Shown piece by piece: positions 5,619 through 22,842 of a DNA stretch of 24,376 bases (the stretch's first letter is position 1; each line of letters opens with the position of its first letter). The notes under the pieces were generated by a model. It saw only the letters and a list, made by a program, of their open reading frames with translations. It was not told the origin of the DNA and ran no database searches. Position numbers and translations under genes: made by a program. Source of the stretch: a virus; the IMG/VR virus record IMGVR_UViG_3300042320_001322, positions 1 through 24,376 of that record. One strand, 5' to 3'.

Positions 5619-5837
5619 TTAGTAGATCGTAGCAGTGCGAGGGCGGGCTGCGCCCACGCCACGGACCTTGACGTTATCGCCTGAAATAGACTTTTTTACG
5701 GGCTGGCTCAAAGTTTTGCCTTGGGGGCCTGCGGTATCAGGACCACTGGCATAGATTGCGCCGCCTTTGGCAAAGCCCTTCTTGGCAATGCCTTCTCCGC
5801 GCATGGCGAGGCCGCCTTTTTTCATGCCGTGTTTCAT
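5619..5837 (-). CDS. Small basic Gly/Lys-rich phage protein (72 aa)
   Basis: The protein begins MKHGMKKGGLAMRGEGIAKK and is strongly basic, with KGG and AKKG repeats. It ends in VRGVGAARPRTATIY, resembling the end of the 61-aa protein at 6491-6676 (RGVGVARNKQCKMY). ATG 5837 overlaps the stop of the DUF6496-like gene as ATGA. Similar basic mini-proteins occur among structural genes of aquatic phages, and some are virion-associated. DNA or capsid binding is plausible from charge but not shown. It contains no membrane segment. Confidence 0.7.
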   Translation of the reverse strand: MKHGMKKGGLAMRGEGIAKKGFAKGGAIYASGPDTAGPQGKTLSQPVKKSISGDNVKVRGVGAARPRTATIY

Positions 5838-10631: not shown

Positions 10632-11090
10632 TCACATGTGTAGGATGTCTTCGGGATTTTTGATCGTCGCCAGAATTTCGTCGTCATTGAGAATGCGTAT
10701 CTCGCCTCCGTCAATCATCATCCGCGCCCCAGCATATCGACCAAAAATAATCCAATCCCCCTCTTTGCACCAAGGGCCGTCAGGGAATTTGCCCGTGTCC
10801 TTGTATGCCAGCGGCCCAACGGCCAGGACATACGCGCACGTAGTTGTGAGTTGTTGGCGCTCGATGGTTTGCTCAGCCAATTCAATGCCGCCTTTGGTGC
10901 GGCGAGCGCCTGCGTATGGCAAGACAACTACCCGCCATCCTGTGGGCTGGGGCAAGCGGTCTCGTATGGATTCAGCCGTGCTGATGTGCTCGGCTTTGGA
11001 GGCCTCTTCAGCGGCAATTTTTGCCGCCTCGTCGGCAGCTTTTGCCGCTGCCTCTTTGGCCCATTTCTCTTCCAGTGCAGTTGCTTCCAT
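10632..11090 (-). CDS. GroES-like co-chaperonin with helical N-terminal extension (152 aa)
   Basis: Residues about 43-148 form a Cpn10 domain: RDRLPQPTGWRVVVLPY, RTKGGIELAEQT (mobile-loop region), CAYVLAVGPLAYKD, WCKEGDWIIFGRYAGARM and IRILNDDEILATI. These align with the GroES pattern of an N-terminal beta strand, a flexible loop with a hydrophobic contact, and a closing strand. The first 40 residues are an Ala/Glu/Lys-rich helix absent from bacterial GroES. Phage GroES-like proteins (T4 gp31 is the classic case) cap host GroEL to fold capsid protein. Its position two genes upstream of head proteins supports that. AAGGAG lies 4 nt before ATG 11090. Confidence 0.85.
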   Translation of the reverse strand: MEATALEEKWAKEAAAKAADEAAKIAAEEASKAEHISTAESIRDRLPQPTGWRVVVLPYAGARRTKGGIELAEQTIERQQLTTTCAYVLAVGPLAYKDTGKFPDGPWCKEGDWIIFGRYAGARMMIDGGEIRILNDDEILATIKNPEDILHM

Positions 11091-11346: not shown

Positions 11347-11493
11347 CTACGCAATTTTCACCTTGTTAAATGCGTCCTTGCGATAGACGTACTTTACATC
11401 AGGTTTGGTTTTAGCGGTTTCCCGAGTTTTGGGCCCCCGCATTGGCTGCGGTTTGGGCATTTTGGAAGTTTTGTTGTGCGACTTGCGATGCAT
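11347..11493 (-). CDS. 48-aa basic protein overlapping the portal 3' end
   Basis: ATG 11493 is preceded by an excellent AAGGAG 6 nt upstream (AAGGAGCGCAGC-ATG), located inside the portal coding sequence in another frame. The product begins MHRKSHNKTSKMPKPQPMRG, continues with KPDVKYVYRKDAFNKVKIA and is highly basic. The first 83 nt overlap the portal gene and the last 64 nt extend past its stop at 11411, into space not otherwise used. The strong ribosome site and the use of that gap support a real gene. No function is known. It could be a small DNA-binding or assembly protein. Confidence 0.65.
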   Translation of the reverse strand: MHRKSHNKTSKMPKPQPMRGPKTRETAKTKPDVKYVYRKDAFNKVKIA

Positions 11494-13855
11494 GCTGCGC
11501 TCCTTGCAGGTTGAGGGATTCCTGGTCAATACCGGTCTTGGCCTCCAAGGTCGCCGCCTTGAGACGCAGGTTTGCTTGGTCGTCGGCAATATCTGCTGCC
11601 GTGCGCTGCTGATCGTTGGCCAAGCGTCCCTGATCAAGGGCCAAACGAGCCTTGTCCCGCTCGGCGTTTTGAGCCAATTCCTGTTGCTTGAGCGCAACCA
11701 GCGGGTCTTCCTGATTGCCGGCAAGCTGCTCCTGCAGCGCCTTCATCTCCTGGAAGTACTGGGCAACCTTCAAGGCAATCATTGCCTCGCGCTGCAGCGG
11801 CGATACAAGGCCTTCTGGGTCGGTGCCGTACTGCTGGAACAACTCCGCTTCCGTAGCCTCTTCGGCCTTGAGGCGCAGGTGGTCAAAGCAGTGCTTCTGC
11901 AGGTTGACGGCCACGTTGGGCATCGACCCAACCAGGGGTGCCATGCCAAACATCAGGTGCGCCAGGATGTGGGCATCGTGCTGCTGGCCGGCAAATGCCT
12001 TGAGCGGCGAGCCATCCAAAGCCTGCGCGTTCTCGCTGGCCGGGTCCTTGGGCTTGTCGACGTTCTGCGTGTTGAGAATCTGGTCGATATCGCGCACGCC
12101 GATGGCCTCGTACATGCGGCGGTAGGCCTCATACATGTTGTGCATCTGCGGTGCGCTCTGAGCCAGTTGCAACTGGGTCTGCGCCATCGTGATCCGTTGG
12201 GCCACCGAGAAGATGTTGGGGTCAGAGACCGGCAGGATGTCGATACGGTCGTCAAAATCGCGCTTCTTGATGTAGCGGCTCTCGCCAGGGACATCGTAGG
12301 GGTACTTTTCCGGCAGGTACTCGGCAAAGCCATCGGCCAGCAGTTTGAACTCAATCTTCTGGCTGTAGTGCAGGCGTTTGTGGATGCTCGACATGACGGC
12401 GCTGCCCTTTTCCAGCAGCGCAATCGTGGTACCCACAGCGGCGTTTTGGTTGCTGTCGCCCACCTGCATGTCCGAGATGCTGGCAAGGCGTTGTCCGGCC
12501 TGCACACAGAAGCCCAGGAGCGAAAACAGCGTCTGGCTGGGCTCCTTGTAGGGCAGGGGCATGAGAGTGCTCTGCAAGTCCGCGCCGCCTGCATCGATGT
12601 CCCGGAATTCACCGGGCTGCAGCGGCATGTCGTCGTTCATGATCCGCGCACCCTTGGCCTTGAAGCCAGCGGGCAGGTTGGAGAGCGTGCCGGCGTCCAC
12701 CAGTTGCTGCAAAGCAGACGTTGCGGTCTTGGTCAGGCCGCCGATCAGGTGCAAAAAGCCAAGGCCATAGGACCCCGGGCCCTGGACGAGCAGGTAGTGG
12801 ACATAGTACTGCTTACGCTGATGCTTCTCGTCGCCTTCCTTCCAATTGCGGCGCACTCCTACGCAAGCTTGGGTGACTTCGTCAATCGTGACGATGTAGG
12901 GCAGCTTGATGCCGGTGATTTCGCCCTCTTCGTCCTTGTGCTCAAAGCCAGAGAGGTCCAGATCGACCTGGAACTCGAGCAACGTGACTTCTTCCGGCTC
13001 GGTAGTGGGTTGGACGCCCGTGACGCGGTCTACTTCCTTTTGAATCGTGCTCTGCGGCACCTCGGCAGGGACAGAAGCCTGGGCACTGTCGAGGTACTGG
13101 CCGCGCAAGACCGCTTTCTTGTAGTCGTTGACCGACATCGGAACGCGGTGAGTGATGCGCTGGCATTCGCTCATGACCGACGAGCCCTTGTAAGGGATGT
13201 ACAGGTCATCAGGGGTGATCAGCTTGCTGACCATCCGGCCCTTGTCGTAGTCGTAGTAGACCTTCTTGAAAGCCGAGCCGCCGTAGCCAATCCAGAACAG
13301 CAACTGGTCGAAGTCCGGGGTGTACTCCTCCATCACCGTGGTGATTTCGTAGTTCATGAAGTCCCGAACGCGGGCGGCTTGCATGATCTTCTCGCGGGTC
13401 TCCTTGCCCAGCACCTGAGTGCGGACAGGGCCGTCAGCCGGCATGAGTTCCTTGAGCGCCTGTGCTTGAAATTGCACGATGGCCTCGGTCAGCATAGGGT
13501 GCTGAGCGCCGCACGCGCCCTTGAACGGCTTGGTGCGCTCCTCGAAGGAGAAGCCCAGCATCTTCAGGCCCTTGCCGTACTGCTCTTCCCACTCCTTGCG
13601 CGAGGACTTGTCGGCCTCGTACATCACGATCAGGTCAGAGGCAATCTGCTGCAACTCTGACGGGTCCATGACCTCGGCAAGGTTGCTGTCGAAGGGGACA
13701 TCATCGTCCTCTTCTTCGCCGATGTTGACCACCACATCGCCGGTCTCAGCGTCAAACTCAATCTCGATGTCAGGCAGCTTCTCTGGCTCCTCGACCTCCA
13801 CCAGTTTGTCGCCTACGGGCAGTTCGTCAACGGTGATGTTTTTCTCAATCGGCAT
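11411..13855 (-). CDS. Portal protein (814 aa)
   Basis: Portal proteins form the 12-subunit ring through which DNA enters the head. Here an acidic N-terminal leader (about residues 1-55, with EIEFDAETGDVVVNIG and EEEDDDVPFDSNL) precedes the portal core: SSRKEWEEQYGKGLKMLGF, FKGACGAQHPMLTEAIVQFQ, FDQLLFWIGYGGSAFKKVYYD and ITPDDLYIPYKGSSVMSEC. The C-terminal ~130 residues are Gln/Ala-rich and helical, like the barrel of long podovirus portals. The length of about 800 is normal for portals with a barrel. The start has AAGGA 6 nt upstream. The 3' end encodes a second gene in another frame. Confidence 0.9.
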   Translation of the reverse strand: MPIEKNITVDELPVGDKLVEVEEPEKLPDIEIEFDAETGDVVVNIGEEEDDDVPFDSNLAEVMDPSELQQIASDLIVMYEADKSSRKEWEEQYGKGLKMLGFSFEERTKPFKGACGAQHPMLTEAIVQFQAQALKELMPADGPVRTQVLGKETREKIMQAARVRDFMNYEITTVMEEYTPDFDQLLFWIGYGGSAFKKVYYDYDKGRMVSKLITPDDLYIPYKGSSVMSECQRITHRVPMSVNDYKKAVLRGQYLDSAQASVPAEVPQSTIQKEVDRVTGVQPTTEPEEVTLLEFQVDLDLSGFEHKDEEGEITGIKLPYIVTIDEVTQACVGVRRNWKEGDEKHQRKQYYVHYLLVQGPGSYGLGFLHLIGGLTKTATSALQQLVDAGTLSNLPAGFKAKGARIMNDDMPLQPGEFRDIDAGGADLQSTLMPLPYKEPSQTLFSLLGFCVQAGQRLASISDMQVGDSNQNAAVGTTIALLEKGSAVMSSIHKRLHYSQKIEFKLLADGFAEYLPEKYPYDVPGESRYIKKRDFDDRIDILPVSDPNIFSVAQRITMAQTQLQLAQSAPQMHNMYEAYRRMYEAIGVRDIDQILNTQNVDKPKDPASENAQALDGSPLKAFAGQQHDAHILAHLMFGMAPLVGSMPNVAVNLQKHCFDHLRLKAEEATEAELFQQYGTDPEGLVSPLQREAMIALKVAQYFQEMKALQEQLAGNQEDPLVALKQQELAQNAERDKARLALDQGRLANDQQRTAADIADDQANLRLKAATLEAKTGIDQESLNLQGAQHASQVAQQNFQNAQTAANAGAQNSGNR

Positions 13856-13864
13856 GTTGCTTCC

Positions 13865-16800
13865 TTACAGATATGCGCGGTTGTCGGTGCGCTTGCGTTC
13901 GACCATGCCGCCAGACTTGAATGGTACGCCCTTCTTCTGGATACGGGCTGCGGCCTCTGGCCCCCACACAATTGCTCTGTGCATGACCGGATCGCCGGTT
14001 GCGGTAGTCAAAGTCACATCGCGAAGCTCAAATCCTGGCCCAAGGTCTTTAATCACCTGCTTGAGGTTGTTTGGCAGTTTTTCATAAAGCTGCGCCTGGG
14101 CAGACTCTTGGCCAGGGAACGCGACAAACCGTTTGCCCTGCTGAATCGCGCCCACAACAGCGTTTTTGGCCATCAACTGCTGCAGTACTTGAGGAGACCG
14201 CTCCGTGCCAGCAAAAGGCTGTTGGGTTAGGTAAAACTCGGGGAAAGGCTTCCCTTGTTTTTCAGCGGCGTCTGCAATCTGAAGCCTTTGATAGATCGTC
14301 TCGTTTTTAGCCATCAAAGAAGTTCGTTCTGCCGAGAGCGAATCTACCAAACTGTCTTTGCCTTCTTCCGATGCTTTTCTCAGCTTGACATTGACATCGG
14401 CTATTTGTTTTTCAATCTGCTTTGCCATCGCCCTGTCTTTCTCTTTGCTCCCGCCCCGAGCACCGAATGACTGAAGGTACTCGAGCAGATCGGACTGCAG
14501 TTCGTTGACATAAATGCCTTCTGCTTTGCCTATGCCGGGGATGTTTGTGGTGTGTTCGCTAAACCGGCTAAACGCAATTGGGTTCAACGGGGAGCCCTTC
14601 AAGGTCGGGTGTTGGCCCTCATACGGCATCAAGTAGCCTACTTCTTTTCTTGCTGAATTGAAGGCATTATTAAAGGGACGGCTGATTTCCCTTTGAATAA
14701 GTTTTATTTGGCTTTCTCTTATCTCTCTCATGGCCTTCTCTTGAGAGGACAAGGTGGTCGGTGTTGAATAAGACATTGCTGACTCAAGAACCCTGGGGTC
14801 TAGCCGTCCTGCGTTTACTTCGCGAGCAACATTATCAAGTTGAGCCCTGGACAACTGAGCCGGAGCAGCTGTCTGGTTACTTGCTTGAAGGCGGCTGTTG
14901 AAATCTGGCTTCATTGGATAGAAGTCATCAGGTTCCTCTACGCCATACCGCCTAGAAAGCTCCGAAATCTTTTGATAGCCCCTTTGATACAACTCTTCTG
15001 CGGCCCTGGGCATGGCCAAGGCTGTCAATTGCTCGTCCGTCAGATTCGGCATTGTCTGCCGAATCTCTAATTTAATCCTTTTTACGGCAGGCATGAAGTC
15101 AGGGGACGCCTCTGTGTTTAGCAAAAGCGTTTGTATGCCCCTGATACTGTTTGCATCATCTGCCGCAGAGGCATAAAGGCTTGGGAGAACCGATAGCCGT
15201 TGTTTGACTTCATCGGAAACTGGGAGGCCTGGGTTTTTGGCCAGTTCTATAAGGCGTTTTTGATGGTTGGTCGAAAAAACGCCGTTATCCGCACCTTGTC
15301 GAGCCCTATCTAAGATCGTCAGCAAAGTATTTGCTGCGACTTGAGTTCCCCTGACCTCTGGAGGCAGTTCTTGGGCCAGATGGATCACCCCCAACGGCTT
15401 GCCGGGGTAGATATTGTCTGTCGACTGATAATTTTGGCCGTATTTGCCAGGGGGAGAAACTGATGTGTTGAATCTGCCGGGGTCAAAAACTGATTTAACC
15501 TTGTTCAGAAGCTCAGCGGGAGCAATCTTGGCATTTCCAGGCACATCGGCAAGTGCATCCTGCACCCTTTCGATGTCATAGTCCCTAAATTTGCCCTTGA
15601 TCATGCCCAGGAACTGGTCTTTCTGGACCGGAGACGACATGTTGGCCACGAATTCGTCCAGCCGCCCCACAAAAGGAGCCTGCGAGGAGGGCAAATGCTG
15701 GAAAATCGACTGCGAAGGAGCAACAGCAAACGACGGCTGCGCTCCGAGGGCCTGGAGCATCTCTGCACTGCGCCCGCCACGCTCCAAAGTACGGGTAACA
15801 GGCGCTTCCAAGGCCTTTTCGGTGCGCATTCCAAGCGCCGTGGCCCCTCTTCCGACCGCATTTCCGACCGCCCGTGCCACCGGAGCGACCACTGGAGCTA
15901 CTGCGGGCACCAAACCAGCCGCAAAACCGACCTCCCCGGCCCTTTTGATGCCCTGAAGATCAGGGTGAAACACCGAAAAACCCAGTTGATCGGGTGCTTG
16001 GCCCAAAAAACCGCTCACAGCAGCATAAGTGCGGGGGTCCGGCAGCGTATTTACGTCCCTCTGGGCTGCCAAAGCACGGGCGGCGGCCCCCTGGCGAGCA
16101 ATCTGAGGGTTAAAAGTAGCCGGCCGGGACGCTGCGGCGATCTCTTCGGGCGTCAAAGCGACTTCTCCGCTTTCTGGAGAGCCGTTTGAGCGCCTGACTG
16201 GCGGCATTCCGCCGGACAGGCCCCCTGTCGTAGACATAGGTTCCATGTCCCTCGTCGGGTCTATCGGCTGATTTGCTTGCCTTGCGTCCCTCAGCAAATC
16301 CTCAAGCGGCGTTTTCCCTGAAAAATGTTTGTATAGGTTATAGCCCAGATTAGCGCCCATGCCGGGGCCCATGCCAAGACTAACTACCTTATCCAATGCT
16401 GCCCGAGCCGCTCCCCGAACCCTCATCGCTGAGTCGTTTTTTGGCTCATCCTTTTTCGCCTCGCCGCCATCAGCCATTTTCACCGGCTGCAGAGCCTTGA
16501 CCGGATTGAGCGCGGTGATCTCCAAATCCTGGAGAGCATTGACAGGCTTATAGTCCGCCAACTGCTGCGCAAACTCCTCATCCTCAATCCGATTCATCCG
16601 TGCGCGAAGCTCATCATCACTGACCTCGCGATCCTTATCCTCATCCCCCAAGAACGCCAAAGCCAAAGCGGCCTTGTATCCTGATCCGAGGTCCTCGGCG
16701 CTTGCTGCAACAGGGGCGGCTCGCGCTCCAGCCCGAGGAGCAGCAGAAGCAGAAATACCCAAAGGCGGCTCCATAACAGCCGGCTGCGGCGCGGCAGTAG

Positions 16801-17311
16801 CCGGGGCAGGGGTTTGGGCTTGAGCCCGGGCCCGAGCAGGAGTTGTGCCGCTCATCTTCTTTGACAACCACTGGCGAGCCTGCTCCGCCGTCTTGCCCTT
16901 CAAATGCGGATTGGCTTCCAAAACCTGCGCCGAAAACAGGCTGCTGACAGGCGTATCGGGCGCGGCATTTAAGATGGTCCGGGCTCCAGCAGGACCAAAG
17001 AAGTGGGCGGTATAAATTTCCGAGGGACTCGGCTCACGGCCAAGATTGCGGCGCAAGAAGTCGGTGTTGCTCGCAATCACATCCACGCCCACGCGGATGT
17101 TTTCATCAGGGTTGAGCTTCTTGCCGGGCTGGCCACCAAACTGCTTCCAGGTCGAATCAATCACCCCGAACAGGCCTGCTGCCGAGGATGCATTGGTTTT
17201 GGACGAAGGATTGAGGGAACTCTCGTTACGTGCAATCTGCACGGCCACATCAGGATTTACATTCTTCGCCTGTGCGGCCGCCCGGATTTTGTCGATGAGT
17301 TCTTGGGCCAT
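13865..17311 (-). CDS. Giant virion protein with N-terminal lytic transglycosylase domain (1148 aa)
   Basis: Residues about 15-150 form an SLT-type lysozyme-like domain. VAVQIARNESSLNPSSKTNA carries the likely catalytic Glu30, and AAGLFGVIDSTWKQFGG completes the active-site region. After a Pro/Ala-rich linker (about 155-215) comes a long unassigned region with helical and low-complexity parts. Near residues 965-980 is GIYVNELQSDLLEYLQSFG, which resembles the 'E.QSD' motif I know from large polyvalent phage proteins. The C-terminus ends KSGGMVERKRTDNRAYL. It is probably injected or internal to the virion and cuts peptidoglycan at infection. Its place between terminase and portal, rather than in the tail genes, is unusual. 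A GAGGA lies 9 nt before ATG 17311. Confidence 0.75.
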   Translation of the reverse strand: MAQELIDKIRAAAQAKNVNPDVAVQIARNESSLNPSSKTNASSAAGLFGVIDSTWKQFGGQPGKKLNPDENIRVGVDVIASNTDFLRRNLGREPSPSEIYTAHFFGPAGARTILNAAPDTPVSSLFSAQVLEANPHLKGKTAEQARQWLSKKMSGTTPARARAQAQTPAPATAAPQPAVMEPPLGISASAAPRAGARAAPVAASAEDLGSGYKAALALAFLGDEDKDREVSDDELRARMNRIEDEEFAQQLADYKPVNALQDLEITALNPVKALQPVKMADGGEAKKDEPKNDSAMRVRGAARAALDKVVSLGMGPGMGANLGYNLYKHFSGKTPLEDLLRDARQANQPIDPTRDMEPMSTTGGLSGGMPPVRRSNGSPESGEVALTPEEIAAASRPATFNPQIARQGAAARALAAQRDVNTLPDPRTYAAVSGFLGQAPDQLGFSVFHPDLQGIKRAGEVGFAAGLVPAVAPVVAPVARAVGNAVGRGATALGMRTEKALEAPVTRTLERGGRSAEMLQALGAQPSFAVAPSQSIFQHLPSSQAPFVGRLDEFVANMSSPVQKDQFLGMIKGKFRDYDIERVQDALADVPGNAKIAPAELLNKVKSVFDPGRFNTSVSPPGKYGQNYQSTDNIYPGKPLGVIHLAQELPPEVRGTQVAANTLLTILDRARQGADNGVFSTNHQKRLIELAKNPGLPVSDEVKQRLSVLPSLYASAADDANSIRGIQTLLLNTEASPDFMPAVKRIKLEIRQTMPNLTDEQLTALAMPRAAEELYQRGYQKISELSRRYGVEEPDDFYPMKPDFNSRLQASNQTAAPAQLSRAQLDNVAREVNAGRLDPRVLESAMSYSTPTTLSSQEKAMREIRESQIKLIQREISRPFNNAFNSARKEVGYLMPYEGQHPTLKGSPLNPIAFSRFSEHTTNIPGIGKAEGIYVNELQSDLLEYLQSFGARGGSKEKDRAMAKQIEKQIADVNVKLRKASEEGKDSLVDSLSAERTSLMAKNETIYQRLQIADAAEKQGKPFPEFYLTQQPFAGTERSPQVLQQLMAKNAVVGAIQQGKRFVAFPGQESAQAQLYEKLPNNLKQVIKDLGPGFELRDVTLTTATGDPVMHRAIVWGPEAAARIQKKGVPFKSGGMVERKRTDNRAYL

Positions 17312-17358: not shown

Positions 17359-18822
17359 CTAATAATACTCAACGGGCTGCGTGTCAAGACTTCCCTCGTC
17401 CTCATGGTCCGTTTCCAAGCTGATAAAATTGCCCTGGCGGAATCGGTGCCAAGCCATAACAGCAGTGTCGACCTGATCGTCGTTGTTGCCGTTGGGGAAA
17501 GCAGCACACTCTTCCACCATCTCCTCGGCCCACTCTTTGCCCTCTGGGTACCACACCATCCCAGACTCAAGGATGGGAGCAACAGCATTGGCGCGGCTGA
17601 TCTTATCCTGCCCGGTTTTACGGCCGCCAGGGGAGAACATAGTAACGGGGATCGCGAGCCGGCGCAACTCCTGCTGAAGCGGGGTCCCCGTTGCCTTGGC
17701 CTCGATCAAGACACTGTCGGGCCGCCAGTACTGATACTCGTCCTTGGCCACGCGCTTGAGTTCCGGGAAATCCCACCGGCCCTTGCGCACATTGAGCAAG
17801 ATGAGGTTGGGCCCCGAATCGGCATCCGGGGTAAACACGCCCCAGGTGCTGATAACAGAGTAGTCAGCCGTCTCCTTCTTACTGTAGGCGGTGTCCAAGC
17901 ACTGCAGGACATAGTCGCACTGTGGCGGCTCGTCGTATTGCCATTTCCTCCACCAGTTTCTTTTGAGGATCGCCCCCTCGTCGTTGGTCGGCTGCTGCTG
18001 CCACTGGGCGTTCCACTTCTTCAAGCCGATAGATACTTTGACCTTCTCCAGTTCGTCTAAGCTCCAGTACTCCGGCCAGAGTGGATTTCCGGAAGGCAAG
18101 ATCGCAGGAAATTCCAGCACCTCCCACTGATCGCTCTTGAGATACCCCTGCTGCTTGAGCAGGCGGCCCGATAGGTCGTCCGTTTTCCATCGTGTGTTGA
18201 TTACGATAATTGAACCATTGGGCTGTAACCGCTGCCGGGGGCCAGAGGTATACCACTCGTAAGTGTTCTCCATGGCGGTCTCAGACAAAGCATCCTGCTC
18301 GTCCAAGATGTCGTCGAGCACAACAACATTGCCGCCCCGGCCGGTCATCGCGCCGCCTTTGCCGATGAAGAAGGCTTCACCACCAAGGTTCGTGTTCCAC
18401 CGGCCGGCGGCCTTGCTGTCTGCTGAGAGGCTCACCTTCGGAAAGAGTTCTTTGTACTTCTCGTCCTCAACAAGATTCCTGATCATCCGGCCAAACCGCT
18501 GCGCGAGTTCAGCAGTATGGGAGCCGACAATGAGTTTTGAATCGGGGACCCGGCCCATCAAATAGGCAGGGAACAGATAGCTGCCCATCTGCGACTTGCC
18601 GTGACGGGGAGGCATCGCGATCATCAGGCGCTTGCACTTGCCTTCGACCACGCGATCCAGGGCAGCAGCGATCCGGCGATGGTGTTCGCCGACGATCATT
18701 TCAGGCCACACGTATCGACAGAAATCCAGGAAGTTACTTGTTGCGCGTTCCTGGGCTTCAAGAAATTGCAGGCGAAGTTCGAGGCGAAGCCTTTCGGCTT
18801 CGAGGTCTTCAGGTTTTGACAT
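17359..18822 (-). CDS. terL: Terminase large subunit, ATPase and nuclease (487 aa)
   Basis: The ATPase domain has Walker A at about 71-77 (PPRHGKS) and Walker B at about 166-173 (VVVLDDIL). The nuclease domain has the expected acidic residues D310 (CLDTAYS), E374 (VLIEAKATG) and D448/D449 (NDDQVDT). The protein cuts concatemeric DNA and drives it through the portal. I start at ATG 18822 (MSKPEDLEAE). A longer TTG start at 18861 lacks a Shine-Dalgarno. No Shine-Dalgarno precedes 18822 either, but a good promoter lies so close that the message may be leaderless. The small subunit is encoded about 4.5 kb upstream, which is unusual. Confidence 0.95.
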   Translation of the reverse strand: MSKPEDLEAERLRLELRLQFLEAQERATSNFLDFCRYVWPEMIVGEHHRRIAAALDRVVEGKCKRLMIAMPPRHGKSQMGSYLFPAYLMGRVPDSKLIVGSHTAELAQRFGRMIRNLVEDEKYKELFPKVSLSADSKAAGRWNTNLGGEAFFIGKGGAMTGRGGNVVVLDDILDEQDALSETAMENTYEWYTSGPRQRLQPNGSIIVINTRWKTDDLSGRLLKQQGYLKSDQWEVLEFPAILPSGNPLWPEYWSLDELEKVKVSIGLKKWNAQWQQQPTNDEGAILKRNWWRKWQYDEPPQCDYVLQCLDTAYSKKETADYSVISTWGVFTPDADSGPNLILLNVRKGRWDFPELKRVAKDEYQYWRPDSVLIEAKATGTPLQQELRRLAIPVTMFSPGGRKTGQDKISRANAVAPILESGMVWYPEGKEWAEEMVEECAAFPNGNNDDQVDTAVMAWHRFRQGNFISLETDHEDEGSLDTQPVEYY

Positions 18823-18829
18823 AGCTACA

Positions 18830-18858
18830 AATATACCCCCGTATATCGATTTTGAAAA
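18830..18858 (-). promoter_or_regulatory. Promoter for the terminase/head operon, predicted leaderless
   Basis: On the minus strand TTTTCA (18853-18858) and TATATT (18830-18835) are separated by 17 nt. The -10 box ends 7 nt before the terminase ATG, so transcription would begin at or next to the start codon. This explains why no Shine-Dalgarno is seen. The assignment is by sequence match only. Confidence 0.5.
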
Positions 18859-18863
18859 CAAGG

Positions 18864-18964
18864 GGGGTGTTTATGGCCCCCGGGGGTCAGGTTCTAGGGA
18901 GGTTTTCCTTGGCCAAAAATCGGGATAGGGGCGTTCGCTCCGGTTGACGGGGTGTTTATGGCCC
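18864..18964. repeat. 16-bp direct repeat pair upstream of terL
   Basis: The 16-mer GGGGTGTTTATGGCCC occurs at 18864-18879 and 18949-18964, 85 bp apart start to start (about eight helical turns). Between them lies GGGGTCAG, whose reverse complement CTGACCCC follows the second copy. It may bind terminase or a late regulator. Confidence 0.75.
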
Positions 18965-19062
18965 TCCCCCTCTAAAGCTGACCCCTAACTCTAACCTGTG
19001 CGTCGCATCCCACGGACTGATTGGCGGGCCCACCCACCCCCGCCTCCACCTTGTGGGAAAAA

Positions 19063-19080
19063 TTTTAGAACGTTCTAAAA
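19063..19080. promoter_or_regulatory. 18-bp perfect palindrome, candidate operator
   Basis: TTTTAGAACGTTCTAAAA is a perfect 18-bp palindrome lying 20 nt past the accessory-block terminator stem and about 205 nt upstream of the terminase promoter. A perfect palindrome with A/T flanks and a GAACGTTC centre is typical of a site for a dimeric regulator. It does not match the LexA box types I know (GAAC-N4-GTTC or CTG-N10-CAG), because the half-sites abut. Confidence 0.5.
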
Positions 19081-19100
19081 AGCAACACGGCGCGCGGGGA

Positions 19101-19130
19101 AATAAAAAAGCCCCAGCAGCTGCTGGGGCT
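19101..19130 (-). terminator. Rho-independent terminator ending the accessory block
   Basis: The 22-bp self-complementary sequence AGCCCCAGCAG/CTGCTGGGGCT (19109-19130) is followed on the minus strand by six U-coding bases (19104-19109). It lies 36 nt after the stop of the 92-aa gene. A second hairpin CTGGGCCC/GGGCCCAG (19143-19160) precedes it. This separates accessory transcription from the terminase operon. Confidence 0.9.
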
Positions 19131-19166
19131 TGGCCTGTGTGCCTGGGCCCGAGGGCCCAGTTTGTG

Positions 19167-19445
19167 TTAGGTGTTGGCCTCGGCCGCCTTCTTGGCTTGA
19201 TAGGCCTCGAAGGTGGAACGGCTGCGCTCCTTGACCAGGGTCTTGTCGCCCAGGTCCATATCCTCCAGCTGGACCTGCACGCCGGACGGGTCAGCATAGA
19301 ACATGTACTCACGCTTGTCGTAGTCGTACTCTTGCTGCACTGGGCGCAGGCCGACCATGAAACCTGCCAGGGCTGCAACGTCCTTGGCGCTGGTGCTGGT
19401 GGGCAAGAGGAAGCGCTGACCGTTGATATTGATAACCTTGTTCAT
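19167..19445 (-). CDS. Small hypothetical protein with hairpin leader (92 aa)
   Basis: From ATG 19445 the product begins MNKVININGQRFLLPTSTSA and continues VAALAGFMVGLRPVQQEYDY, KREYMFYADPSGVQVQLEDM and a basic C-terminal helix (VKERSRSTFEAYQAKKAAE). I choose this start because AGAAAGGATAGA lies 3 nt upstream, as in four other genes of the block, and the upstream codons lie in its leader hairpin. It looks like a small soluble alpha/beta protein. I do not recognise the family. It is the last gene before the terminator. Confidence 0.78.
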   Translation of the reverse strand: MNKVININGQRFLLPTSTSAKDVAALAGFMVGLRPVQQEYDYDKREYMFYADPSGVQVQLEDMDLGDKTLVKERSRSTFEAYQAKKAAEANT

Positions 19446-19448
19446 GAC

Positions 19449-19500
19449 TCTATCCTTTCTAGGGTTGACTGCAGCACCGTGCTGCAGTGATGACATTATA
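19449..19500 (-). promoter_or_regulatory. Hairpin leader cassette, copy 1
   Basis: In minus-strand order: TATAAT (19495-19500), 7 nt, the stem-loop CTGCAGC-ACGGT-GCTGCAG (19469-19487), 8 nt, AGAAAGGATAGA (19449-19460), 3 nt, ATG. The -10 spacing puts the stem at the very 5' end of the mRNA. No consensus -35 is seen. Instead a 9-bp inverted repeat TAGCACCGG/CCGGTGCTA (19499-19524) overlaps the -10. Confidence 0.7.
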
Positions 19501-19531
19501 GCACCGGTTTTTATCCCGGTGCTACATTTTT

Positions 19532-19864
19532 TTAACTAACTGTAATCTCGAAGGTCAGGTCCTTAACTGTCTCAGTTATCAGATCGGTCAGGTCCAGGTC
19601 CTTCCTGACGTAGCGGTCGATATCGCCTTCAATGTCCAGGTGGACCGTGGCCCAGGTATCGAGGCGGTCATTCAGGTAGTTATCGGCCCAGTCCTCGATA
19701 CCGGCGCTGATCCGGGAGTCCAGGTCTCCCTTGAGCCCTTCGATGGCAGCGGATGCGCCTTCGGTGACTTTGCCAGCCAGTTCGGTCTGGACCCGCTGGG
19801 CGACATCGCTGACAAGCTTGTCATACAGTCCGCCGAGCAGGGTGAGCATTTCAGATTGGTCCAT
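19532..19864 (-). CDS. Acidic hypothetical protein with helical region (110 aa)
   Basis: From ATG 19864 it begins MDQSEMLTLLGGLYDKLVSD and is acidic and mainly helical. It has an amphipathic part (VAQRVQTELAGKVTEGASAA) followed by regularly spaced Asp/Leu segments (DNYLNDRLDTWATVHLDIEG, YVRKDLDLTDLITETVKDL). Acidic helical phage proteins of this size are sometimes DNA mimics or protein inhibitors, but that is speculation. The start is fixed by the shared AGAAAGGATAGA 4 nt upstream. The longer frame to 19948 would read through the leader hairpin as poly-Ala and is unlikely. Confidence 0.75.
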   Translation of the reverse strand: MDQSEMLTLLGGLYDKLVSDVAQRVQTELAGKVTEGASAAIEGLKGDLDSRISAGIEDWADNYLNDRLDTWATVHLDIEGDIDRYVRKDLDLTDLITETVKDLTFEITVS

Positions 19865-19868
19865 GATC

Positions 19869-19922
19869 TCTATCCTTTCTAAGGGTTTAGCTGCAGCGGC
19901 CGCTGCAGCAGACCACATTATA
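19869..19922 (-). promoter_or_regulatory. Hairpin leader cassette, copy 2
   Basis: TATAAT (19917-19922), 7 nt, the 20-bp perfect palindrome GCTGCAGCGGCCGCTGCAGC (19890-19909), 9 nt, AGAAAGGATAGA (19869-19880), 4 nt, ATG. The only -35-like hexamer (TTGGCC) is 20 nt from the -10. This copy has a CGGCCG apex rather than the xxGGT apex of the others. Confidence 0.7.
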
Positions 19923-19957
19923 ACCCAGGTCCGTGGCCCACGGGCCAATTGTATTTT

Positions 19958-20218
19958 TTAATCGGCCACCAGCGCCCGATCAATTTCGGACTGCAGGACC
20001 ATATCGGCCGCTGCCCAGCACTCGGCCGGCTCGCCCTGGTCATCCGTGAACGTCACGCCCTCATAAATGGGTTTGTCCAGTTCAGCGTAAACCGACTGCA
20101 TGAGCGAGAGCACGGCAGCATTACGCGTGGTCATCAGGAACAGGGCCAAGGCTTTCGCCCTGGCCCCCTGGGTGGTGGGATCATGGATCACGGCCAGGGC
20201 CAATTGTTCTATGTGCAT
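19958..20218 (-). CDS. Small hypothetical protein (86 aa)
   Basis: From ATG 20218 the product is MHIEQLALAVIHDPTTQGAR and continues with a helical AKALALFLMTTRNAAVLSLM, then acidic YAELDKPIYEGVTFTDDQGE and a helical end. I choose this start because GGAGG lies 8 nt upstream and the preceding stop is 2 nt away. The longer frame to 20377 has a Pro/Gly/Arg-rich translation of the neighbouring gene. It is the last gene of the three-gene unit starting at 20720. The family is not recognised. Confidence 0.72.
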   Translation of the reverse strand: MHIEQLALAVIHDPTTQGARAKALALFLMTTRNAAVLSLMQSVYAELDKPIYEGVTFTDDQGEPAECWAAADMVLQSEIDRALVAD

Positions 20219-20220
20219 GG

Positions 20221-20487
20221 TCAGGCCTCCGCGCCATACTGGCCCACCCAGCCCAGGCGGGCCAGGGCTGGGACCTTGGCCCACTCGAGGCCAAAAACGC
20301 TGGGGAAATATTCCGCCCCGGGCTCGACATACACGCGGCCAGTGCTGGCCGCGTGGCGGGGCGGGTGACCGCCGCAAAGCTCCGCCTTATCGCCCCTAAA
20401 GTCGGTGACAGTATCGCCCAGGCAAGCGGGCCGCGTAGTGCCCTCATGGACCAGGGTCCAGCCATCGCGCTCGATCAATTGTTTCAT
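20221..20487 (-). CDS. Small conserved phage protein (88 aa)
   Basis: It begins MKQLIERDGWTLVHEGTTRP, followed by ACLGDTVTDFRGDKAELCGG and PPRHAASTGRVYVEP, and ends FPSVFGLEWAKVPALARLGW. Small proteins with this 'GDTVTDFRGD...GRVYV' core occur in many phages and prophages, in my experience without an assigned function. It is a soluble, beta-rich protein. A GAGGGGG lies 8 nt before the ATG, and the upstream stop is 2 nt away, so it is in one transcript with the 76-aa protein. Confidence 0.75.
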   Translation of the reverse strand: MKQLIERDGWTLVHEGTTRPACLGDTVTDFRGDKAELCGGHPPRHAASTGRVYVEPGAEYFPSVFGLEWAKVPALARLGWVGQYGAEA

Positions 20488-20489
20488 GG

Positions 20490-20720
20490 TCAGGCCCCCT
20501 CGATTTCCGGAGGCAGAACCTCCGCATACGGGTTACCTGCGAACAGGCGGGCCAGGGGGACCATGGCAACATTGTCCCCTTCTTCCTCCTGGACCGCGCA
20601 AATCACGGCGACATATTCGCCAGTAACTGCATCGGTGCATTCCACCAGGGCAACATCCTTGTTCTTGAAGGCGCGTTTTATCGTCTCGAAATTTGAGACG
20701 TCTCCGGGCTTGAGGGCCAT
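20490..20720 (-). CDS. DUF6117-like small protein (76 aa)
   Basis: From ATG 20720 the sequence MALKPGDVSNFETIKRAFKN, then ALVECTDAVTGEYVAVICAV, ends LARLFAGNPYAEVLPP. The 'NFET..RA...ALVECTDA.TGE...VICAV' pattern fits the DUF6117 family as I remember it, found on phages, plasmids and islands. The role is unknown. The shared leader element AGAAAGGATAGA lies 3 nt upstream, which fixes the start. It is the first of three genes in a small operon. Confidence 0.8.
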   Translation of the reverse strand: MALKPGDVSNFETIKRAFKNKDVALVECTDAVTGEYVAVICAVQEEEGDNVAMVPLARLFAGNPYAEVLPPEIEGA

Positions 20721-20723
20721 AAC

Positions 20724-20791
20724 TCTATCCTTTCTTGATCCGGGGCACCGCGCCCCGGTCCGGGAATTATATACCAAAATTCACGCGTCAA
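20724..20791 (-). promoter_or_regulatory. Hairpin leader cassette, copy 3, with promoter
   Basis: TTGACG (20786-20791), a 14-nt spacer, TATAAT (20766-20771; the run is TGGTATATAAT, which may act as an extended -10), 7 nt, stem-loop CCGGGGC-GCGGT-GCCCCGG (20740-20758), 4 nt, AGAAAGGATAGA (20724-20735), 3 nt, ATG. The spacer is shorter than usual, so the -35 is uncertain. Confidence 0.65.
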
Positions 20792-20796
20792 CCTAG

Positions 20797-21000
20797 GGGA
20801 AACCCGGTCCGGCTGCCGCCGGACCGGGTTTCCCGGGCCACGGCCCGGGGCCCATGGCCCCCGGACCACGCGCCATGCGCCACGTTTTACGGGGCGAGCG
20901 GCAGGGACCAGGGGGCAGGTTTCCCCCTGCAAAACTAACCGGGGGAAACCGGGCAATTGAGAATGGTTTTCATTGGCAAATAGGACTGATTCTCAATTGC
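20797..21000. repeat. Cluster of inverted repeats in a gene-free interval
   Basis: Between the DUF932 stop (21012) and the copy-3 promoter lie five inverted repeats. They are a perfect 16-bp stem at 20797-20812/20819-20834 (6-nt loop), 7-bp CCGGGCC/GGCCCGG at 20833-20848, 6-bp GGGGCC/GGCCCC at 20847-20861, 7-bp CAGGGGG/CCCCCTG at 20909-20929, and a 12-bp stem GCAATTGAGAAT/ATTCTCAATTGC at 20953-20964/20989-21000 with a 24-nt spacer. None has a U-tract on the minus strand, so they are not standard terminators. No ORF is convincing here. Confidence 0.85.
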
Positions 21001-21011
21001 ATCAGGCCGGG

Positions 21012-21971
21012 TTAAGCGGCGAGCAGTTCCATGGCCTTATTTTTCAGGGCTGCACCAGTGCCGAACCATGCCGACTCAAGGCGGGTTGACCCCTGCCGGC
21101 CGCGCTCATGGTCTACCATCTCGGTGACTGCGTTAAGCATTCCCCAGCGGGTCCCCATGACTCCGGGGATATCGGACCCGATAGCCGAACCCTTGAACAA
21201 ATCCATGATGCGGCGGTATCCCTTGGTTTCCGGGATATCAAGCCGGCCAGTATGGTAGGGCTCGAGCAGCGCCTTGATAAATTCGTCCGCCTCGGGCTCG
21301 CTCATGGGGCGGCCGGCAAGGGCCCGGGACTCAATCAGGAATCGCTCCCAGTTGTCCGCCACAATGCCCAGTTCAAGGCGGACCCGGTCCGCATCGAATC
21401 GCTCGGAGTGCAGCACCCGAACCTCTCCGGTAGTTTCGCCTGCCAGGGCCCGGACAATGGTGTTATTGCACACTACGCGGACGGCCGTAAATTTTGCGAC
21501 CGTGGCCATAGTCCCATCATAGGACGTTCCGAGCAAAAGGTAAGGCCGGACGATATCGCCCCCCAGGACCTCAGCGCCGGGGTTGACCCTTGCCAGGGCC
21601 CACACTCGGCGGCCGTGGCTCAGGGCCCCGGCGGTTTCGAGCTCAAACCCGCCGATGTCCGCAAGCTTGCCGAAAAACCCCATAACCTCGGCCGGCTGCA
21701 CCGTGCGATAACCGTCCGAAACCACGGACAGGGCTGCCCCGGTATCGCTGCGATGCAGGACCTTGCGACCCTTGAAAACCTCGGGCTCAGTGGCCGCCTC
21801 GGTCCGATACAAAACCGGGGACTCGAGCACGGTATAGGCTAGTCCGGCCTGATGGGTCCATTCCTCGATTGAGGCCCCGGGCTGCAGCTGGTGGCCGAGG
21901 CCGTGCCATGGGGTTTGGCCGAGGTATGCCATAGCAGCGCGGCCGGTAGTGGTGTCGATCATGTGAGCCAT
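21012..21971 (-). CDS. DUF932 / phage-plasmid-like protein (TIGR03299-type, 319 aa)
   Basis: The protein matches the DUF932 pattern I know as 'phage/plasmid-like protein'. It has TPWHGLGHQLQPGASIEEWT, then VLHRSDTGAALSVVSDGYRTVQPAEVM, RVWALARVNPGAEVLGGD, the core LLLGTSYDGTMATVAKFTAV followed by RVVCNNTIVRAL, and a helical C-terminus with MLNAVTEMVDHERGR. It is a common accessory gene on phages and plasmids. Its molecular role is not established, though links to DNA metabolism and defence contexts are often proposed. Length is normal. The start is fixed by AGAAAGGATAGA 3 nt upstream. Confidence 0.88.
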   Translation of the reverse strand: MAHMIDTTTGRAAMAYLGQTPWHGLGHQLQPGASIEEWTHQAGLAYTVLESPVLYRTEAATEPEVFKGRKVLHRSDTGAALSVVSDGYRTVQPAEVMGFFGKLADIGGFELETAGALSHGRRVWALARVNPGAEVLGGDIVRPYLLLGTSYDGTMATVAKFTAVRVVCNNTIVRALAGETTGEVRVLHSERFDADRVRLELGIVADNWERFLIESRALAGRPMSEPEADEFIKALLEPYHTGRLDIPETKGYRRIMDLFKGSAIGSDIPGVMGTRWGMLNAVTEMVDHERGRQGSTRLESAWFGTGAALKNKAMELLAA

Positions 21972-21974
21972 TTA

Positions 21975-22054
21975 TCTATCCTTTCTTGAGGGTGCCCCGC
22001 TGCACCATGCTGCGGGGCTGAGTGAATTCTAAGCCTAAATCGGGCCCGGTCCAA
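21975..22054 (-). promoter_or_regulatory. Hairpin leader cassette, copy 4, with sigma70-like promoter
   Basis: TTGGAC (22049-22054), a 17-nt spacer, TAGAAT (22026-22031), 7 nt, a stem-loop at 21994-22018 (7-bp outer stem GCCCCGC/GCGGGGC, one A-A mismatch, 2-bp GC/GC around loop ATGGT), 7 nt, AGAAAGGATAGA (21975-21986), 3 nt, ATG. This is the clearest full promoter of the set. Confidence 0.75.
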
Positions 22055-22075
22055 TTGATTTTTTTAATCGCGAAT

Positions 22076-22147
22076 CTAATCCCAATTGCCAAATTTATCT
22101 ATCAAATACCACGCCACGAGGAACAGCAGCAAGACCACAAAAAACAT
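22076..22147 (-). CDS. Single-span membrane micropeptide (23 aa)
   Basis: ATG 22147 shares its A with the stop of the upstream 231-aa gene (TAATG) and has GGGAGG about 9 nt upstream. The frame stops at TAG 22076. The peptide is MFFVVLLLFLVAWYLIDKFG plus NWD. It is one hydrophobic helix (residues 2-16) with a short charged tail. Overlapping stop/start and the strong hydrophobic run in a 175-nt gap support a real coupled gene. It could be a tiny holin, toxin-like peptide or regulator of a host membrane enzyme. None of these is shown. Confidence 0.55.
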   Translation of the reverse strand: MFFVVLLLFLVAWYLIDKFGNWD

Positions 22148-22842
22148 TACTGAGCCCTCCCGATATCTCCGGCCACATGGTGGCGCAAAAAAGACCCCGG
22201 GGGCAGCGACCGAGCAAAAGCCCGCAGCGACTGCCCATCATCGGCCGGGGCCTGTTTTTTGACCCCGTGCCACTGTATCGCTGTAGGGCCGCTCGCGGCA
22301 TAGCATCCGCCGCCAGCATCGGACCCGACTTTTTTAGCCCCGGTCCCGTGAGCAACAAAAACAACAACATCGGACCGTTCGGGCCTTGCGCACAGTGGGC
22401 GGCCGTTCCCGCACTGGGCACATGTAAAAGCTTCCGACAATTCGGCAGGGCAGCGATAAAACCGGACCCCGTCAACAGTGGCCGGCCAATTGTCGGCGGT
22501 ATCCTTCGGGGCAGCATACACGGCGGGACGGCCGGCTTTTACCGCCGCCACAGCATCGGCTACGGTATCGCAGGACGCATTTATCACGGTTTGGCCCTTC
22601 TTGGCCTTCGGAATAGCAGCGGCCGGAAAATGCGAATAGGTCCAGGCAAGCCCCTGCCGGGGGACTGACTCGAGCAAGGCCTGCAGATAGCCCTCGTCGA
22701 CCAAGGTCGCGCCCTGCTCACTCTTGGGGTGCAGCTTGCACGTTTTGGGGCACGTTTTATAGGTTTCGTGCTCGCCACTGCGATACGTCACAGCAATAGG
22801 GCCGGTTTTCCGGTTACCGGACACGGGAACGGTTTTCAGCAT
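22147..22842 (-). CDS. Cys-rich phage protein, DUF7227-like (231 aa)
   Basis: Starting MLKTVPVSGNRKTGPIAVTY, it has an N-terminal Cys pair (C31 and C35, TCPKTCKLHP). A second cluster is C131, C141, C144 and C151 (CPAELSEAFTCAQCGNGRPL), typical of a metal-binding site. Between them lies INASCDTVADAVAAVKAGRP, and after the cluster VVFVAHGTGAKK. I recall this architecture from phage proteins grouped as DUF7227. No catalytic role is established. Metal binding is inferred. The leader AGAAAGGATAGA lies 3 nt upstream of ATG 22842, followed upstream by a small hairpin. Confidence 0.72.
   Translation of the reverse strand: MLKTVPVSGNRKTGPIAVTYRSGEHETYKTCPKTCKLHPKSEQGATLVDEGYLQALLESVPRQGLAWTYSHFPAAAIPKAKKGQTVINASCDTVADAVAAVKAGRPAVYAAPKDTADNWPATVDGVRFYRCPAELSEAFTCAQCGNGRPLCARPERSDVVVFVAHGTGAKKVGSDAGGGCYAASGPTAIQWHGVKKQAPADDGQSLRAFARSLPPGSFLRHHVAGDIGRAQ

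Follow-up and report, generated by a model that had tools for sequence, protein, structure and literature searches.

A large SLT-domain protein with a conserved ELQSD module and an exchangeable cassette is encoded between the terminase and portal genes of an uncultured phage

The viral sequence IMGVR_UViG_3300042320_001322 of IMG/VR (positions 1–24376; this whole stretch of 24,376 nucleotides is referred to as the window) encodes a large protein of 1148 amino acids between the genes of the terminase large subunit (TerL) and the portal protein. Its gene is an open frame with an ATG start at positions 13865–17311 of the minus strand; the plus-strand reading of the same positions contains many stops. 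The end of the TerL gene is separated from the start of the large-protein gene by 47 bases, and the end of the latter from the portal gene by 9 bases. The PHROG matches of both flanking genes bear out the location between terminase and portal given in the initial annotation, which did not record that the gene lies on the minus strand and missed the exchange of cassettes, the border motifs, and the C-terminal tail recurring among slot genes. Counts out of 66 below refer to nonredundant genes occupying the same TerL–portal slot, drawn from 91 loci. The features of the locus are as follows.

17359–18861, minus strand: TerL, flanking gene (PHROG 38, E = 3.8e-112)
13865–17311, minus strand: large-protein gene, 1148 amino acids, stop codon included (open frame, ATG; purifying selection)
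16847–17311, minus strand: SLT lytic transglycosylase domain, residues 1–155 (PF01464; alignment with gp144)
17222–17224, minus strand: codon of E30, the probable catalytic glutamate (aligned to E115 of gp144)
16454–16468, minus strand: border motif GGEAK, residues 282–286 (site of an insertion in L010)
16163–16183, minus strand: border motif GSPESGE, residues 377–383 (insertion directly behind it in L008)
15842–15940, minus strand: hydrophobic segment rich in Ala and Val, residues 458–490 (Kyte–Doolittle maximum 1.95; values of at least 1.6 in 5 of 66 genes)
13913–15724, minus strand: exchanged cassette, residues 530–1133 (replaced in L008 and L010 between flanks of 87–98% DNA identity)
13901–15679, minus strand: ELQSD module as searched and folded, residues 545–1137 (97 IMG/VR relatives; alignment A3; AlphaFold2 model)
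15362–15679, minus strand: conserved N-lobe of the module, residues 545–650, approximate bounds (A3 and the model)
13898–14626, minus strand: conserved C-lobe of the module with the ELQSD motif, residues 896–1138, approximate bounds (alignments A2 and A3; EIQSDW profile match)
14489–14503, minus strand: ELQSD motif, residues 937–941 (Q, S, and D invariant in 44 sequences)
13868–13912, minus strand: C-terminal tail GGMVERKRTDNRAYL, residues 1134–1148 (similar tail in 51 of 66 genes; codon analysis)
11411–13855, minus strand: portal protein, flanking gene (PHROG 1216, E = 1.6e-44)

Relatives of the module (residues 545–1138) were confirmed at 97 IMG/VR loci of uncultured phages, and 80 of these loci were kept. 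The alignment of 44 sequences (A3) contained 33 invariant columns, including H901, R916, Q939, S940, D941, K1049, K1088, D1089, and W1116 in the numbering of the window protein. In comparison with relative L003, the ratio of nonsynonymous to synonymous substitution rates (dN/dS) was 0.13 across the module and dropped to 0.039 within residues 900–1138 (21 synonymous and 3 nonsynonymous changes). The module is under purifying selection, and the gene is more than an open frame. The ELQSD motif, which the initial annotation had pointed out, is a conserved feature, and the further domains suspected there in the long C-terminal part materialized as a conserved module of about 600 amino acids that appears distantly related to a polyvalent-protein domain.

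The AlphaFold2 model computed on the 44 sequences had a predicted local distance difference test (pLDDT) value of 86.2 and a predicted template modelling score of 0.76, with conserved ends and a helical part between them. An earlier model, for which 5 sequences were used, reached a pLDDT of no more than 56.4; it was of poor quality and was discarded. Pfam and PHROGs searches with the 44 A3 members returned scattered weak matches, the best E values being 4.8e-4 and 0.002, respectively, and none was common to more than 3 members (25 of 35 Pfam and 25 of 28 PHROGs families considered). The best match among PDB sequences was an unrelated chain with E = 0.029. The module was not found in named phages and plasmids, nor in NCBIfam queried with the window protein (P0001) only. 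Among GTDB genomes, 48 stretches fitted the search pattern and none was confirmed as the module; the scan used two short peptide patterns, so absence from GTDB is unproven. Foldseek comparison of the model with PDB gave nothing at E ≤ 1e-3 (best 0.02), and the best Z value in VIA-align 2 was 8.8, coming mainly from insert helices and lying in the range that its documentation calls common. Three BFVD matches with E ≤ 1e-3 were all proteins of uncultured phages, with template modelling scores (TM-scores) of 0.16–0.26 over the model; the next two rows, also with low TM-scores, were annotated as ‘Large polyvalent protein associated domain-containing’ (E = 4.3e-3 and 0.02). These structure searches give no demonstration of a new fold.

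A protein occupying the same TerL–portal slot at locus L163 carries ELQSDWGQEGKKKGF. A scan with this region gave 51 IMG/VR loci, 31 of which were aligned (A4, the EIQSDW family). With gap-rich columns dropped, the C-lobe profiles of A3 and A4 matched over 195 columns with a probability of 77.7 and E = 1.9e-5. The best of 20 column-permuted controls, which destroy local order, reached a probability of 3.1 and E of 0.014, and the reversed control reached a probability of 0.3. The N-lobes matched over 23 columns only (probability 21.2; controls ≤1.0). Five EIQSDW proteins were scanned for known domains: LPD38 was found in two and ART-PolyVal in three, with at least one of these in four of the five. 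From these profile matches, we take the ELQSD module to be a divergent member of the EIQSDW domain family found in polyvalent phage proteins.

The N-terminal SLT domain proposed in the initial annotation was confirmed. PF01464 matched residues 9–84 (E = 1.4e-8, 34.8 bits, curated cut-off of 21.3), and residues 11–137 aligned with gp144 (9xps, 3bkh) with E of about 7e-11; these are the nearest solved structures by sequence. The gp144 protein belongs to phage phiKZ, and E115 is its catalytic residue. The glutamate of the ES motif, E30, stands opposite E115, in agreement with the probable catalytic role given to Glu30 in the initial annotation. The gp144 chains have 260–268 residues, whereas the SLT domain of the window protein continues into about 1000 further residues and has GLFG opposite the GWFQ of gp144. 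By pattern, an SLT-type N-terminus was present in 55 of the 66 slot genes (three types: 19, 30, and 6), and Pfam gave an SLT match in all 15 pattern-positive relatives scanned. The motif position was occupied by GLFQ in 15 of the 66 genes; the other subtypes were GEMQV (30) and GPMQV (6).

Since its nearest solved SLT relative is named an endolysin, the protein might be a lysis enzyme (endolysin fusion) of late infection that acts outside the virion. The large protein is also the sole PF01464 match in a 46,966-base IMG/VR record, possibly incomplete, which carries the same sequence as the window (99.97% identity over 17,013 compared bases). Six records were searched for PF01464, however: three had one match each, and three had none. 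The SLT-type N-terminus was absent by pattern from 11 of the 66 slot genes, and the TerL–portal slot was kept in the surveyed loci. We consider a lysis function very unlikely.

The slot itself is fixed in position and highly variable in content. We compared 84 rows, comprising 80 ELQSD loci and the loci L005, L008, L010, and L015 (L005 and L050 are one contig). A portal gene followed the slot gene in all 84, its match beginning at most 300 bases away except in L028, L029, and L082 (up to 1795). A TerL match was obtained in 33 rows and lay upstream in every one of them; the remaining 51 had no TerL within the contig DNA compared, and in 49 of these the slot gene was cut by the contig end. The capsid protein was 73–100% identical to that of the window in the 32 rows containing it. 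A TerL scan, in which 80 of 130 loci were kept, provided a TerL-anchored sample of 61 loci, not dereplicated and including three named phages. An open reading frame (ORF) was present in all 61 TerL–portal gaps (595 to 6638 bases), and 15 of them contained the ELQSD module. This sample is less biased for the ELQSD share than the 66 genes, in which ELQSD scans and the TerL scan were pooled.

The 66 slot genes encode proteins of 410 to 2000 amino acids. DUF6973 was found in L005, L007, L132, and L134, and in L097 slightly below the cut-off. The HExxH motif was present in 21 of the 66 genes (mean of 0.45 in shuffled sequences) and absent from the window protein. Clear PcfJ-like matches were found in L139 (E = 1.7e-6) and in the named phage DSL-LC04 (E = 5.2e-9), both without the recurrent tail; those of L010 (E = 0.01) and L152 (E = 6.8e-4, below the cut-off) were weak. 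A PcfJ label for the second cluster of tail-bearing genes was weak, nine other scanned members (L008, L094, L096, L106, L112, L125, L132, L134, and L161) having no PcfJ match.

The exchange of segments is directly visible in two close relatives, L008 and L010. Their flanking segments are 87–98% identical to the window in DNA, yet both have other sequence in place of residues ~530–1133. On the right, the exchange stops at residue 1134, the G with which the tail begins; on the left, its border lies at residues 528–531 in both genes. Both genes have an insertion of ~480–490 bases at residues 194–203. L008 has another of ~765 bases at residues 383–387, behind GSPESGE, and L010 one of ~510 bases at residues 284–289, behind GGEA. 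No motif was found at two border sites, residues 194–203 and ~530. An inserted segment of L008 and L010 contains ‘IGDSLAEG’, which we take to be SGNH-like.

The motifs at the insertion sites are strongly over-represented in slot genes. GGE[VA] occurred in 77 copies in the 66 genes (mean of 6.1 and maximum of 14 in shuffled sequences), GSP[PE]xGE in 46 (mean 0.02), GGM[VI] in 46 (1.8), and GGP[VA] in 22 (6.3, maximum 14). The DNA-level junctions, 224 in 45 genes, were within 4 amino acids of a motif in 55 cases, with 2.5% expected, and within 12 amino acids in 92, with 6.3% expected; junctions are not independent among related phages, and BLAST ends may be off by a few residues. When unique 12-amino-acid contexts were counted, 48 of 196 were at a motif, and the value for random positions 15–75 amino acids away was 1.8%. 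Two control motifs, each with ~2% expected, coincided with 1 and 7 of the 224 junctions. Exchange junctions thus fall on GGE[VA]/GSPExGE-type motifs about ten times above chance, the pattern having been picked after inspection of the sequences. The 46 copies of GSP[PE]xGE comprise 36 distinct DNA 21-mers: the border motif is conserved at the protein level rather than at the DNA level.

A separate ORF of 72 amino acids (5619–5837, minus strand) carries KKGFAKGGAIYASG, resembling the border motifs; relative L084 has KKGFAKGGMV. The border signal may thus be used by this ORF as well as by the large protein.

A basic tail like GGMVERKRTDNRAYL ends 51 of the 66 slot genes. Among 38 unique versions of 15 codons, G1, G2, and Y14 were invariant, D10 was present in 32, and R12 in 33, with varying codons. 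The ratio of nonsynonymous to synonymous polymorphism (pN/pS) of the whole tail was 0.45, and therefore only some positions are constrained. With a looser pattern and single linkage, which may conceal further families, 52 tail-bearing genes fell into two clusters: 25 carried the ELQSD module, and 27 had a different C-terminal part that is PcfJ-like in some of them. In the pelagiphage HTVC023P, the slot is filled only by gp30 (L168:3718–4323), a protein of ~200 amino acids ending in GGGMARMKPTKMY; this end is loosely like the recurrent tail, and the protein is perhaps a minimal version. The slot is likewise occupied by a gene in HTVC027P, also a cultured pelagiphage.

The clustering of junctions at the border motifs and the adjacency of the tail to the portal gene could also be explained if motifs and tail were mere linkers or recombination spots having no role in the protein, the identity of the module being neutral. 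The retention of amino acids in spite of differing DNA, both in the GSP[PE]xGE copies and at the three invariant tail positions, speaks against this explanation, as do motif counts above those of the shuffled sequences. We regard it as rather improbable.

In bacteriophage T7, five positively charged C-terminal residues of gp16 are needed for infectivity, according to PMC8954989. The basic tail of the slot proteins is likened to this C-terminus by analogy. The likeness is broader, as gp16 is of comparable size (1318 amino acids; PMC8954989) and also has an N-terminal SLT domain followed by a long C-terminal part. In addition, the SLT part of L139 was assigned with E = 2.3e-10 to PHROG 342, whose annotation is ‘internal virion protein with endolysin domain’. 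The window protein could accordingly be read as a gp16-like internal ejection protein whose C-terminal part only aids DNA translocation, with ordinary mosaicism as the source of variability. The window protein, however, did not match PHROG 342 at E ≤ 0.1, and its gene, unlike that of gp16, sits between TerL and portal. PcfJ-like, DUF6973, and HExxH segments occur in its relatives, and a strongly hydrophobic segment, expected for gp16-like membrane insertion, is present in just 5 of the 66 genes; a membrane-spanning reading of residues 458–490 was rejected on the latter ground. In our judgment, the gp16-like explanation is unlikely.

The polyvalent proteins described from phages and from conjugative elements are predicted to be injected (Iyer et al. 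2017, PMC5512222). As in the polyvalent proteins described there, the window protein is large, is encoded among the virion genes of a portal–terminase phage, and combines a predicted muralytic domain with other modules; the HExxH motifs of slot genes parallel the metallopeptidases of polyvalent proteins (PMC5512222), and the EIQSDW relatives of the module co-occur with LPD38 and ART-PolyVal. A difference is that the ELQSD module has neither a convincing Pfam or PHROG match nor, for P0001, one in NCBIfam. The PcfJ-like protein of DSL-LC04 (OR003939; PF14284 segment) shares with the window protein the TerL–portal slot and the GG and GSPE border motifs; it has no SLT match, ELQSD module, or DNRRYL-like tail. 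Polymorphic toxins of the Rhs/CDI type have a constant N-terminal part and swapped C-terminal modules. The slot proteins resemble them by architecture only and differ in being encoded by a virus and in having a constant tail after the exchanged module.

Taken together, the large protein is probably a virion-borne, ejected polyvalent protein of a bacteria-infecting virus, in which a standard chassis carries exchangeable cargo. Its position in the genome and the gp16 analogy suggest that it would be incorporated close to the portal during virion assembly. It would leave with the DNA at infection, and the SLT domain, assigned by homology, would open the peptidoglycan locally. The ELQSD module may then enter the host and act on a host component, as its distant polyvalent-protein kinship and the presence of other modules in its place in related genes suggest. 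Motifs of the GGE[VA]/GSPExGE type would mark many of the borders between cargo units, where recombination swaps whole units, and could be either flexible connectors or cleavage sites. The basic C-terminal tail would be part of the chassis and may aid packaging or ejection.

Several observations weigh against the reading as an ejected polyvalent protein. Its SLT motif is slightly degenerate: GLFG is found in the window protein, L008, and L010 (3 of 66 genes), and the GL[FM]Q motif matters in SLT transglycosylases. The 11 slot genes without an SLT-type N-terminus imply that the slot can do without a wall-cutting function. The tail was missing by the same pattern from 15 of the 66 genes, and where present, it may partly hitchhike because portal-adjacent DNA is conserved anyway. 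The left border of the window’s own cassette (~530) is one of the sites devoid of a motif, and 169 of the 224 junctions lie farther than 4 amino acids from one. Compared untrimmed, the A3 and A4 profiles matched weakly (probability 24.9, E = 7.8e-4). Except for SLT, the window protein matched no catalogued polyvalent-protein domain.

A more far-reaching version, which we put forward as doubtful, is plug-and-play ejection. By means of one chassis gene with standard connectors and a basic C-terminal signal, different modules would enter the virion and pass through the portal, and phages could in this way swap host-acting cassettes; the connectors would be cut after delivery, freeing effectors, and the ELQSD/EIQSDW proteins would be a new class of injected enzymes.

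By portal and TerL, the nearest named phage is DSL-LC04 (62–64% identity), followed by HTVC027P, HTVC023P, and 023Pt_psg01 (43–55%). The listed TTG start of TerL (17359–18861, minus strand) is probably 13 codons too early; the protein begun at ATG starts with MSKPEDLEAERL, resembling the TerL start of L094. A GroES-like co-chaperonin is encoded in the head-gene cluster (10632–11090, minus strand; PF00166, E = 1.5e-10); the gene is also present in relatives and is annotated in DSL-LC04 and three other named phages. A DUF932 protein (E = 3.7e-54) adjoins a DUF7227 protein (E = 2.1e-33) at 21012–22842 (minus strand). The region 18862–22146 contains three copies of a 28-nucleotide direct repeat, AGAAAGGATAG-like on the minus strand and situated directly before start codons, which is perhaps a common ribosome-binding leader. 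A pair of 24-nucleotide repeats and imperfect inverted repeats were found in the same region.

Polyvalent proteins have already been published, and cassette recombination has been suggested for one of their loci (PMC5512222); the available part of that paper describes no fixed TerL–portal slot, border motifs at junctions, or recurrent tail. For the chosen terms, nothing on the TerL–portal slot was found in passages of PMC10611076, PMC12753301, and PMC9599517, and among the literature matches listed, many of them unrelated, there was no description of the slot, of its border motifs, or of its tail. The TerL–portal gap is a recognizable place to seek phage proteins that are injected, in a group of which few members have been cultured. 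The ELQSD/EIQSDW superfamily is defined here, the searched libraries having given no convincing model for it. Interchangeable proteins delivered via standard connectors and a standard tail are a testable idea, and the delivery step itself would become directly testable should the tail turn out to signal packaging or ejection.

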